From contig NC_063152.1 in NCBI RefSeq assembly GCF_020921035.1, positions 4,321,001 to 4,385,000 on the forward strand: a stretch of DNA of 64,000 bases, given 5' to 3'. How positions within the stretch are numbered: position 1 is the first letter of the stretch; every line of letters starts with the position of its first letter. Shown here piece by piece: positions 16,201 through 33,300 of this stretch. Below the pieces are notes generated by a model, which searched no databases, was not told where the DNA came from, and saw nothing but the letters and a program-made list of their open reading frames with translations. The stretch is from Rhodamnia argentea. Its lineage: Eukaryota; Streptophyta; Magnoliopsida; Myrtales; Myrtaceae. The translations under genes were made by a program, and so were the position numbers.

Positions 16201-18857
16201 AAGAGGTAATTTTCTTGTCTTTCATTTTGCTTGGATATATAAATGGCGTACCCTAGATGAGAGGAATAAGAATTGTTTTAGTTTCTCTTGCACTTTAATT
16301 CTCTGTCTATTATATTTATATATACTCCCATCAGTTGACTGATTTTGTCGATAATGATCACCTTATGGTAAAAAGTTTCAGCTTTAGGCATCTCAACGGT
16401 GCTTGAAAAGAAGAGAAATACATGGCGCACCCCTAATTGAGTGTATCAGTCTGCAATCTATGTCCTGAAGCATTTTTGGCGTTTTACGTTAGTACATTTA
16501 TGTGCACTGGAAGAAGCTTTTCCAGTTTCCCTCATGCTTAGGATGCTCTTGAATTTTTGCTGATGATTCTAAGGCAATTTTTCGTATTTCTAGCCTAACT
16601 CTGGAGGATCTTGTCTTTTTTGTCCTAGACCGTTTCTTTATAAATACTAACTTCAGGCTTTACCTTTTTTATCAACTTGATTCTCCAACTCAATCTTTTC
16701 TAATTTAGTCGAGTGTTCACTTTTACATGGACATACTTACACAATAACTAAGTAAAAGTGTCATTAACAAGCCTTCTTTGTAGATATATCGTTCTGGTAA
16801 TTGCTGAATGACTAGTCATATGATTACATCTTGATGCAGGTTGCTGCCAAGAAGCTGACTCTTAAAAATGTCACCGACTACATTGTTGATGTTGTCTGCA
16901 AACGTGCGGAATTTGGTTACAACTATGGAGTCATCCTCATACCAGAAGGGCTTATTGATTTCATTCCAGAGGTAAACTTGTACTTCTTTTAGATGTAATC
17001 TGCAAACCTTTTAAATTTTCTTCTTAGGACTGTCAAATGGATTAGTGAAGTACGTCTATGGTAGACACTAATTGAACTGTACTATTTGCAGGTGCAGCAG
17101 CTTATTTCAGAACTAAACGAAATTCTTGCCCATGATGTCGTGGATGGAGGTGGGCTTTGGAAGAAGAAACTCAACAGTCAGTCTTTGGAGCTCTTTGAAT
17201 TTTTACCTCAAGCAATTCAAGAACAACTGATGCTTGAAAGAGACCCACATGGAAATGTACAGGTAATTGTCATCATCTTCAACCGTTTCACCTAATATTC
17301 AGTTCCTCTGGATTTTGTCATCATTCTTACCTGTTTCTTTGTTTTTTTTTTGGTCGAACCTGTTTCTTTGTTTAGGTTGCTAAAATTGAGACAGAGAAGA
17401 TGCTCATTCAAATGGTTGAAACTGAATTGGAGAAGAGGAAGCATGAAGGTACATACAAGGGCAACTTCAAAGGACAATCCCACTTTTTCGGGTAATACGG
17501 ATTTGTCTGTGAAATTGTGTCATTTCTTTTGTGGTTTTATTTGAAAGGTCTATTCAGGAAGGGTTTCTGGTAATTGTTCCTCTTTTCTGGTGGTTGTAAA
17601 ATAAGTGAAACCTGTTGTTATTCTATTCGGATTTTTCTTTGACCTTGACCATATTACCTTTACTCTTTATTTAATGCATGCTTATTGCGTTTCAGGTATG
17701 AAGGTAGATGTGGTCTGCCAACCAACTTTGACTCGACATATTGCTACGCTTTGGGTTATGCTGCAGGAGCTCTCCTCCAGAGCGGGAAAACCGGGTTGAT
17801 ATCTTCAGTATGTCTTTTTCCCCTGGCAAAGTTTGCCCTATATTTGAGGATGGTTGTCATTTTCAGTTGACTGGTCTTTCTCATCTGCGAAACTGATGGA
17901 GCTCACAAGCATAATATGTCTCCAGGTGGCAAATTTAGCTGCCCCAGTTTCAGAGTGGACTGTTGGTGGAACTGCATTGACAGCATTGATGGACGTTGAG
18001 AGGAGACATGGTACACTAGTTTATTGAGATTCTTTGATAACATCATGTAGGATGATACCTATTTTGTCCTTTCTGAGACTGTATGGTTGCTGTACCCTTG
18101 TTACAGAAGCTAGATCTTCCGATTTAGTAATTGTGTGCTTCATGGAAGCGACAGAGAGAATGACCATGGACTGGGTCTATCCCTGTTCCGTTGATAGCTC
18201 GGCTGGTTTTTTGAGTGGGGTTCAGTTTTGATTTATCCATCCGAATATCCCGGCAGTTCATTATTTTTAGTAGCTCATGTTTGTTGCTCTTACCTGTCTA
18301 CCTTTTCTGGCTCGCAATATGACTGTTATGCCTGTCTGTCTTTCCCCGTGTGTGTGATCATATGTGTATCTGTGCCCTTAAATGCACAGCTCAAGCTGAG
18401 TCCAAAATCTTTATCTTATCCCAGGTAAGTTCAAGCCTGTGATCAAGAAGGCAATGGTGGAGCTTGAAGGTATAAATTGCTGCGTGCCGTATACCCACTA
18501 AATTTGCTAGTGCAAACCTGGATCTTCTAAGCAATAGTTCTATTGATGTAGGTGCACCGTTCAAGAAATTTGCCTCAATGCGGGATGAGTGGGCCATCAA
18601 GAACAGATATATCAGTCCTGGTAGGTTTTGTCCCCCTTTAAGAATGTGTGGTTTTTCAGAAAGTTGGTCACTACGAATGATCTGTTTGATTCATGCTTGC
18701 TATTTCATTGTCATTTATTCTCATGCATTTCCTTTCTTCTATTGGTACCTTGTTATATTCCCTTTTGCATTTAAATGCAGGTCCCATTCAATTTGTTGGC
18801 CCAGCATCGGATGCAGTCAACCGCACCCTATTGTTGGAACTTGGAGCTCAAGCTTAG
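13262..18857 (+). CDS. PFP-BETA: Pyrophosphate-fructose-6-phosphate 1-phosphotransferase, beta (catalytic) subunit
   Basis: Sixteen exons (13262-13460, 13813-13974, 14102-14223, 14523-14576, 14665-14771, 14885-14990, 15178-15241, 16117-16205, 16840-16971, 17092-17262, 17376-17491, 17696-17807, 17926-18010, 18425-18469, 18552-18620, 18781-18857) sum to 569 codons plus stop, the usual family length. The enzyme reversibly makes fructose 1,6-bisphosphate from fructose 6-phosphate using PPi, in the cytosol, in a complex with regulatory alpha subunits. Seen motifs are GGQAPGGHN (~106-114) and GGDDSN (~199-204), where the second Asp is the PPi-type signature in place of the Gly of ATP enzymes. The catalytic PKTIDGDL segment (~227-234) and MGRAASHI are also present. 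The chain ends LLLELGAQA. The acceptor of exon 11 has been remodelled by a tiny retroposed insertion. Confidence 0.96.
17329..17373 (-). mobile_element. Nano-retroposon 1: poly(T)-GGTCGA between 16-bp direct repeats
   Basis: A 16-bp sequence ACCTGTTTCTTTGTTT occurs at 17329-17344 and again, perfectly, at 17358-17373. Between them lie only a T run and GGTCGA (17345-17357). Read on the minus strand the insert is TCGACC followed by poly(A). That is what remains after extreme 5' truncation of a retroposed RNA with target-site duplication. The right copy runs into the TTTAG acceptor of PFP-beta exon 11. Confidence 0.75.
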
Positions 18858-30341: not shown

Positions 30342-33300
30342 ATGGCTTCCCGCGACAAGAAACCGGCCAAGCCCTCCAGCAGCCGGCCCGGCGGCATACG
30401 CACCCTCTCCGATTTGAACCGCCGATCCGGACCCGACTCCGACAGCGACTCCGACAACCCTCAGGAGTACTACACCGGCGGCGAGAAGAGGTGCTCCTTC
30501 GAAACCCTAATCCGTCCTCTCCCCGTATCGATTCTGTTGATTTCGCTCCGTTTGTTCCGATTAGATTAGATTAGATTAGATTAGATTCGTCTCAAGGTGT
30601 TTGGCCCAGGGAAATGATTCGCTTTGATAGACTTTGCTTGCTCTGACTGAGGATGAAGATTGGGATTTTGTTGTTTTTAAAGATTTTGTTTTAATCACCG
30701 TCTCTAAGACATTCTATGAAGTATGTTATGCATTTTGCTCCTGCTGTTCTATTAAGAAAAGTCGATTTTGGGTGTTCCAAATTCGTTTGTGTCCGATAGG
30801 AATGAATTAGATGCTAGCGAAGGAAAAAGAACTGCATGTGCAGATTGACAGGCAATCCCCAGTCGATAATGACGTGGTAGTGATGGCGATGGGTTGGTTC
30901 AGAGGGAGAAAATTTGGCTCGTGAGGTGATTTTGGCATCTGGGGTTTGGATGCAGCATAAATGGATGTAGTCATCCTAGATTTTCTACTTTGGTTTTCTG
31001 TGGTCTTTGAAAAAATTAATAGAAGTAACTCCATTTCAAAGTTTTTAGTGATGTTAAAGTAGTAGAATGACCAATGATAGTCTGAATTTGAATCTGAATA
31101 AGCTATATGCATAAAGGGTCCAGGTATGTAGAGTGGAGCACTTTTGGGGAAGTAGCATCAAGGTAATCGGGAGTGTACATGCAATTAGATACTGGATGAA
31201 GTCTACCTGTAGCGAGGTGATTCTTTAGGTCATTTTGCTAATCATTGAAATCTAAACTGTCATGCCCAAGTTATGTGGTTCTGCTGTCTGCTAAGCAGTC
31301 CCATGAAAGAAACTGGCATCTCATTTAGCAACATAAGGCCGATAATTGTTTGATACCTTAGTGGAGCTAACTTGGAGTATCTGTGTTGGTTGGCTGATTA
31401 GATATATTTCACAGTTCTAATACATTGGTCTATGAAAACAAAAGGTTGAAATTTTTTTAACTTTATGTTTCATTAGGAACTTACACACCAAGTGACAAGT
31501 GCTGGGTTTTTATGTTTTTCTGCCCACTTATATTTGGGGTGGCTAATTCTGGTTTCACAGTCTCAAATGCACTGGGCTTGTAGGAAAATGTAGCGTGAAG
31601 CCTCCAAATGAGGTTCGGATTCCACAGTGTTTAATAGGTGTCTTTGTTATATGAATTTTAGGACAGGAATATAGGTTGTCATTGATGAGAATTTGCTTGA
31701 AGGTTTCAGCGCTTGCTCCTGCTGGCTAAGGACAAATGGGGGATGCATGAGAATGTACAGGCTACTTTTCTCTGCAACAACCTGGAATTTGAGGGCTGAT
31801 GTGTCGATCAACTGCTTTTTTGATCTTGGATTTGTTTATTCATCATTCAATATTTATGTACTGCTGATTCTGCGGTGGTATTTCTCCTGCTGAATGACAT
31901 GGATTTTTATTTATTTATTTATAAATCAGGTTTTGTTTGCAGTGTGATGACTGAGCAGTTAGTTTTCAGTATGACTGAGCAAGTGGGTTGTCTGAAGAAA
32001 TATTTGGCACTTGTGTGTGCATCAGAATACAATGTTATTGACTGTCACAGCTGAAGGCTGACACTGTACGATATATAACTTGCAGTGGGATGCTCGTGCA
32101 AGATCCTTCCAAAGGCAATGATGTGGATTCAATTTTTAATCAGGCTAGAGAAATGGGTGCTGTAGAAGGTCCTATAGATAACCTTCTTCCATCTTCAAGT
32201 TCAAGGAGCTTTACTGGAACTGGACGACGACTTTCAGGAGAAACAGCGCAGTCGGCTCCTCAGACACCTGAGACTGTCATTCACAATATTGTTTTCTGGA
32301 GCAATGGGTTCACTGTGAATGGCGGCCCTCTAAGGAGATTGGACGATCCTGAAAATGCATCTTTCCTTGAGGTATAAGATCAGATAATTCTACTTGAACT
32401 GAGCACAAAAACTAATTGAAATTTGAGCACCAAGTATTTTTTTTTTTTTTTGGTCAGGAGCACCAAGTATTTATCATGTGTGTGTATGCACCTTTTATTT
32501 TCCTCCAAGTGGGAAGAGACGTGAAGGATTGATACAGAGTAATCAGTTCTTATGGAAGACTTGATACTTAATAGAGTGCATCGGCGTAAAAAATTCTATA
32601 GAGCCAATTTGTTCTTCTAGTTGTTGGTGCTGTCGTTGGAGATCAACTCCATAACTTGGTCAGGAATCCGTTCCAAAACTTTGATATTTCTTGCCTTAAG
32701 TGTTGTTCTATTTCGAGGAGTAGCTGATGTTCTTTTCATCTAAATCAAAAGGCCTTGGTATGATTTTTGGGAAATCTTATTCCTGGATCTGGACAACAAC
32801 TATGTTGGTAATCTCATGGATAGTTGTTTCCTGGATAGAACTTCATTTATTTTTCCAGTTCTTCTTGTGCTGCATTGCTCATCTCTTATTTCTTTCTATG
32901 CAGAGCATTAGGAAGTCTGAGTGTCCAAAAGAGCTCGAGCCTGCGGACAGGAGATCCTCTGTTCATGTGAATCTCATAAGGAGGGACGAGAAGTGCCCTG
33001 TGAGTAATTTCTCTACTGCCATTCTTATTGCAGTGTCTCCCTTCCTCGTATTAATAGAGAGGAATATACTTAGCTGATACTGGAGACTAACGAATAAGTC
33101 TCTTTCATGAAGTCATGTATTTTTATCCATGTATTTCTGCTTTTGGTACTCGTTAAGAAACCCCCTTGGTACCACCACCATAATACTATATCTAGTCCTT
33201 TCAAACTCTGTAATTATCAAGTTAAAATGCATCGTCTTGCAGGAACCAGAGAAGCGTCATGTTCCATTTCAGGGTGTTGGAAGAACACTAGGAAACAGCT

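Follow-up and report, generated by a model that had tools for sequence, protein, structure and literature searches.

The closest described relatives of the insertions reported here come from long interspersed nuclear elements (LINEs) and other retroposons. The target duplications of full-length human L1 copies are described as peaking at 14–16 bp (PMC2912911), and a poly(T) insertion in human NF1 has been explained by severe truncation of an Alu or L1, or as a processed pseudogene (PMC3219598). Partial Sadhu elements of Arabidopsis are described as consistent with abortive retrotransposition (PMC2848041), and the effects of short L1 copies in mice have been the subject of study (PMC11084082). 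Here, we analysed a 64,000-bp stretch of the Rhodamnia argentea genome (NC_063152.1, positions 4,321,001–4,385,000; this whole stretch is called the window), in which four sites (Table 1) hold a poly(A) run and only a few further bases between perfect direct repeats of 15–16 bp. Such insertions are called stubs in the following, and the bases that precede poly(A) are called the body. We consider it probable that stubs are insertions made by L1-like LINE machinery, in which target-primed reverse transcription (TPRT) ends about 7 nucleotides (nt) beyond poly(A). The copied stretch was found to be nearly fixed in length across several LINE families, which an earlier sequence-only reading of the window had not foreseen.

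A genome-wide class of short poly(A) insertions

The coordinates, the perfect direct repeats, the four inserts and their 3:1 orientation given in the sequence-only reading were all exact on recheck. A detector requiring an A-run of 7 or longer, a perfect direct repeat of 11 or longer and an insert no longer than 30 gave four matches in the window, which were these four sites only. At the same settings, no match was found over 40 dinucleotide shuffles of the window or in the reversed window. The motif poly(T)8-GGGTC, which the same reading had put forward, was also shown to be enriched when the genome (346.7 Mb, 74 contigs) was scanned on both strands with the reversed pattern as control (1992 compared with 81). 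Similar results were obtained for KSGACC-A9 (1999 compared with 64), CCGACC-A9 (653 compared with 15) and TTACC-A9 (2129 compared with 174, the count for the latter pattern also including short interspersed nuclear elements (SINEs) and long LINE copies). The four patterns are mutually exclusive, and their excess over the reversed controls was 12- to 44-fold.

Outside the sites by which the regions had been chosen, the detector gave six matches in 200 kb of C1 (L009–L028). Five of these resembled stubs, with the bodies TTCTTTACCC, TTTCGACC, ACTTTACC, TCTGAT and TCCGACC, and the remaining one was A/T-rich noise. With the region-choosing sites included, the same 200 kb gave 12 matches, compared with two in the reversed control. 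The density was about 1 per 29 kb (9 in 264 kb), a rough value from two chromosome regions.

A sample of 93 sites was characterized, comprising the four window sites and 89 sites taken in map order from C1: 29 GACCC-A8 sites in L001–L028 and, for the other patterns, those that come first on the map (40 for KSGACC-A9, 12 for CCGACC-A9 and eight for TTACC-A9). Duplications were searched for by anchoring the right flank at the end of poly(A) and aligning it to 60 nt on the left. A score of at least 8 was reached in 65 of the 93 sites, 59 of them with a body of 4–10 nt, compared with a duplication and such a body in 3 of 367 mismatched flank pairs. The other six scoring sites had bodies of 0, 12, 12, 16, 19 and 19 nt; L028, one of these six, holds a stub, but an adjacent second insert diverted the score. 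By eye, 11 of the 12 CCGACC sites were stubs, compared with eight by the automatic count. Each genome-wide count was scaled by the fraction of sampled sites of that pattern that had both a duplication and a 4–10 nt body (GACCC 16/29, KSGACC 27/40, CCGACC 8/12 and TTACC 4/8, all small samples from C1). The resulting estimate was about 3,900 stubs, which omits other ends, shorter A-runs and decayed repeats.

Within the 59 stubs, the aligned duplications had a median length of 15 bp (range 9–20) and were perfect in 35. Poly(A) had a median length of 13, and its presence next to one copy of the duplication was built into the search (A8 or A9 and more). The duplication began with AA in 41 of 59, compared with 11% in the flanks, a difference that is inflated by the scoring, which half-credits the A's of the tail, and a pyrimidine preceded it in 44 of 59 (compared with 51%). 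Target duplications of variable length, poly(A) and a 5′-YY/AA-like target, as for the L1 endonuclease, are the features of TPRT that were found. Besides, L122 and L028 each contained paired adjacent stubs at one target, with the target word present three times, as if it had been hit twice.

Length of the body and its LINE sources

Thirty of the 59 bodies were exactly 7 nt long when the extra C of the GACCC bodies was discounted; 24 of these were a 7-mer seen at a LINE end and six were another 7-mer. Of the 17 shorter bodies, 15 retained the full LINE 7-mer when its first 1–3 letters, which overlap the end of the duplication, were counted. Among the 12 longer bodies, three extended as the LINE does (L078, L089 and L117), eight bore other bases (A, CC, A, G, CA, A, TTA and A), and one (L024) contained no seen LINE 7-mer. 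The upstream edge was also visible without searching for duplications: at the fourth and more distant bases upstream of GACC, the letters were near background, except for a small excess of T (KSGACC 22/40, GACCC 12/29). The bodies in the TTACC sample were ACTTACC, CTTTACC and CCTTACC, the last of these in L136 and, with overlap, in L130.

Stubs might be the short tail of an ordinary, broad distribution of 5′-truncated LINE insertions, and extreme single cases of such truncation are known, e.g., the poly(T)-only insertion described for human NF1 (PMC3219598). A search extended to 400 nt in the first 73 sites gave 30 duplications that scored above the maximum of 359 null scores. Of these, 28 had a body of 4–10 nt, one was an inverted-repeat-like oddity (L080), and one had a body of 56 nt (L073). 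No other insert of intermediate length was found among the 73 sites; the body of L073 ended in TTTTCGACC and was flanked by a 17-bp duplication with one mismatch. Such a copy would be expected from ordinary truncation, but the rarity of intermediate lengths within the 400 nt searched and the sharp edge at 7 nt make this explanation improbable.

Source LINEs were sought in regions downstream of RVT_1 or zf-RVT matches (8 after the reverse transcriptase, 20 after zf-RVT with longer frames). Fetched copies were found to end in TTTTCGACC, TTTGGACC, TTTCCGACC, TTTCTGACC or CTTACCTTACC, followed by poly(A). The first group, with TTTTCGACC–TTTCTGACC and similar ends, consists of copies with RVT_3 (RNase-H-like) and of look-alikes by end and layout, RVT_3 membership being tested in L033 and L029 only. 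Further ends preceding poly(A) in this group were TTTTTCCGACC, ATTCCGAC, GGTTGACC, TTTACGACC and CTTCATGACC, as well as CCTTTGAT(C) or CTTATGAC(C). The second group ends in CTTACCTTACC, once with an extra C (L034), and a partial stretch of it (L032) contained zf-RVT, RVT_3 not being detected there. The domain scan thus gave zf-RVT in three of three LINE stretches and RVT_3 in two of three. L052 ends in CTTGCCTT, and no clear LINE end was found in the fetched region of L038. The label L1-like is inferred from the domains, poly(A) and target sites of what are 3′ LINE parts only. The edge was the same whether or not an RNase-H-like domain had been detected in the LINE group, and this domain seems not to be required if the CTTACC group, represented by one partial stretch, is without it throughout.

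The bodies TTCGACC, TTGGACC, TCCGACC, TCTGACC and CCTTACC are the final seven letters of such LINE ends. In total, 50 of the 59 inserts hold a 7-mer seen at a LINE end, a count to be read with search patterns that fix up to six letters. For this reason, the GACCC class, in which the letters are free, is the better witness of LINE origin: T was second before GACC in 23 of 29 and third before it in 21 of 29. The sequence-only reading had named as a possible source a SINE or LINE ending in TTSGACC-poly(A), and had suggested looking for longer members that share such an end. Such longer members were found as LINE copies with the same last letters and poly(A); the LINE part of the proposal is supported, and the single end is replaced by several families, one of which ends in CTTACCTTACC. 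No pol III-type 5′ part of a SINE (about 80–150 bp) was present in the stubs, because bodies of 4–10 nt leave no space for it. The fixed length and the high number of stubs could also be explained by a dedicated non-autonomous RNA of 7 nt and poly(A), a kind of nano-SINE mobilised in trans. However, several different 7-mers, each also present at LINE ends, would demand several such RNAs, and we regard this origin as very unlikely. An origin from tRNA-CCA with poly(A), which had been prompted by the letters ACC-A, was dropped once LINE ends with the same letters appeared.

Long LINE copies were also looked for among the sampled sites. When the 400 nt to the left of the first 73 sites were compared by similarity, a single long LINE copy emerged, L008, with 316 bp at 70% to the L033 LINE and the end TTTCGACCC. 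The automatic search over the last 20 sites missed L135, which was shown to be a long LINE copy by plain alignment of the 60 nt upstream only (score 38.5 compared with at most 15 for 200 shuffles). For the LINE type of L008, 17 matches were found and 11 3′ stretches were fetched, in which the ends were not resolved. The LINE at C10:3414093 and its relatives (L033) showed at least seven long 3′ matches at 97–100% among the 11 listed, and these copies are apparently recent. Two longer insertions were also seen: a SINE-like insert of 165 bp at L008:852–1050, with a 17-bp duplication and the end GGATTACC-poly(A), and, at L026:1858–1935, a 10-bp direct repeat flanking a 23-nt GC-rich piece that ends in GGTTACC and an A-rich tail, which is perhaps a truncated SINE.

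Empty sites and the proposed mechanism

For nine sites, the two flanks were joined and used as a query against the genome, and the copies were aligned pairwise. The site at 30086 lies in a dispersed repeat, and 30 further genomic places were found to span its junction, all with a length within 8 bases of the query, where the insert and the second copy would add 32. All eight paralogues that were fetched were empty, with a single 15-mer and no insert; two of them showed an unrelated 2-base gap further left. Empty paralogues of this one site thereby take the place of the species comparison that the sequence-only reading had suggested. No usable paralogue was found for the other eight queried sites, apart from the weak match L105. 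This 68% paralogue of the L092 site was rejected as an empty site, its duplication being too diverged to count.

Poly(A) runs slip readily and break repair can leave filler, and slippage, filler at break repair or later deletion within longer LINE copies might therefore be proposed instead of retroposition. The empty paralogues contradict this for the tested site. In addition, duplications of 9–20 bp occur at endonuclease-like sites, the bodies equal LINE 3′ ends, and deletion would give varied breakpoints; we find an origin without retroposition barely credible. The proposal of the sequence-only reading that TPRT copied no more of the RNA than poly(A) and a few terminal bases agrees with the direct repeats, the AA start, the empty paralogues and the matching LINE ends.

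By this mechanism, the endonuclease would nick the target at a Y/AA-like site, and the nicked strand would prime on the poly(A) of a LINE RNA. The reverse transcriptase would copy poly(A) and about 7 further bases, after which synthesis would stop, and the stub would be joined across the staggered break to give the duplication of about 15 bp. The polymerase itself may fail early, e.g., as it is released from binding to the RNA 3′ end; stray bases may sometimes be added before joining, and host repair may complete the joint.

Alternatively, the template may have been short, if 5′ degradation of LINE RNAs was halted by a protein bound where poly(A) begins, and poly(A) with the protected footprint of about 7 nt was then fully copied by TPRT. 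A footprint predicts that length is fixed, whatever the sequence and however long poly(A) is, and body length was indeed not related to poly(A) length (r = −0.08, 63 sites); the stray bases at the 5′ side are also consistent with copying to the end of a template. Such RNA would need to be common, however, and sequence alone cannot tell a trimmed template from a stop of the enzyme. We consider the trimmed template a less likely explanation, though the most serious of the alternatives.

Several observations weigh against TPRT by LINE machinery ending about 7 nt beyond poly(A). Nine of the 59 inserts, including the CTGACC site in the window, hold none of the 7-mers found at LINE ends, and a 7-mer match alone is weak proof of the origin of any one insert. 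The GACCC bodies extend 8 nt from poly(A), so the seven-base rule is valid only with the extra C discounted, and a third C was found among the fetched copies only in the old L008 (TTTCGACCC) and in L034 (CTTACCC). No common RNA-fold edge was found at −7 in 24 of the 28 LINE 3′ regions (L029, L035, L038 and L052 being left out). Besides, 34 of the 93 sites fell outside the class with 4–10 nt bodies, some of which may be long copies or chance, and the sample was limited to C1 and one place on C3.

A further, tentative proposal, on which we would not place even odds, is that TPRT by these LINEs passes an early checkpoint, at which poly(A) and about 7 bases have been copied before a transition to elongation, similar to promoter escape. 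Most attempts would fail there, and the 7-nt stub would be the commonest lasting LINE product, with thousands of copies. Each stub would then be the fossil of an aborted attempt, with letters that name the LINE family. If the stop is constant at about 7 nt past poly(A) in LINE groups that differ in their 3′ ends, the initial step of TPRT in vivo could be tested from sequence alone.

Window sites and comparison with known retroposons

Two of the four window sites adjoin exons. At 17329–17376, the exon just 3′ of the probable acceptor matched PPi-dependent phosphofructokinase (1kzh, E 1.8e-5), and no Pfam match was found for it in the domain scan. The insertion doubled a pyrimidine-rich tract at the end of the intron, the second copy stopping just before the probable acceptor. 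The exon encoding a SEP domain (PF08059, E 4.1e-8; window 32300–32472) ends before the fourth stub, which probably lies within an intron. Elsewhere in the window, a tandem repeat with a unit of 126 bp and about two copies was observed at 20191–20493.

Table 1. Target duplications and inserts at the four stub sites of the window.
Feature	Position (+ strand coordinates)	Strand	Remark
Target duplication copy 1, 16 bp, perfect	17329..17344	-	sequence
Insert, sense TCGACC + poly(A)	17345..17357	-	sequence
Target duplication copy 2	17358..17373	-	extends to probable splice acceptor, read from sequence
Target duplication copy 1, 16 bp, perfect	29277..29292	-	
Insert, sense TTCGACCC + poly(A) + T	29293..29317	-	
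Target duplication copy 2	29318..29333	-	
Target duplication copy 1, 15 bp, perfect, within dispersed repeat	30086..30100	+	
Insert, TTGGACC + poly(A)	30101..30117	+	missing from 8/8 fetched paralogous copies
Target duplication copy 2	30118..30132	+	
Target duplication copy 1, 15 bp, perfect, about 50 bases past SEP-domain exon	32425..32439	-	
Insert, sense CTGACC + poly(A)	32440..32457	-	
Target duplication copy 2	32458..32472	-	

Catalogues of LINE insertions are built by similarity-based annotation, which would miss a body of 7 nt. Should there be more stubs than recognisable copies, LINE activity is underestimated, a large number of poly(A) microsatellites represent scars of retroposition, and target duplications beside exons occur more often than has been supposed. 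Stubs could also act as presence/absence markers with clean empty states.

A literature search returned no fixed-length class of LINE stubs, which is weak evidence of novelty, most subscription journals being outside its coverage. Stubs resemble 5′-truncated TPRT insertions of human LINE-1 in their poly(A), target duplications, A-rich target and 5′ loss. They differ in that nearly everything is lost, and in that the remainder is approximately fixed at 7 nt in several families. The NF1 insertion is likewise a homopolymer insertion put down to severe truncation (PMC3219598), but it is one disease allele, for which LINE letters are not reported in the accessible part of that source, whereas stubs occur genome-wide and carry the letters of LINE ends. 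Partial Sadhu elements, as described in PMC2848041, are also 5′-truncated plant poly(A) retroposons, some of them with target duplications; unlike stubs, they are recognised by similarity to a full-length element, and the accessible text of the source reports no fixed stub length. Short mouse L1 copies likewise represent short 3′ LINE pieces as a common product, but in the account of PMC11084082 their length suffices for recognition as L1.

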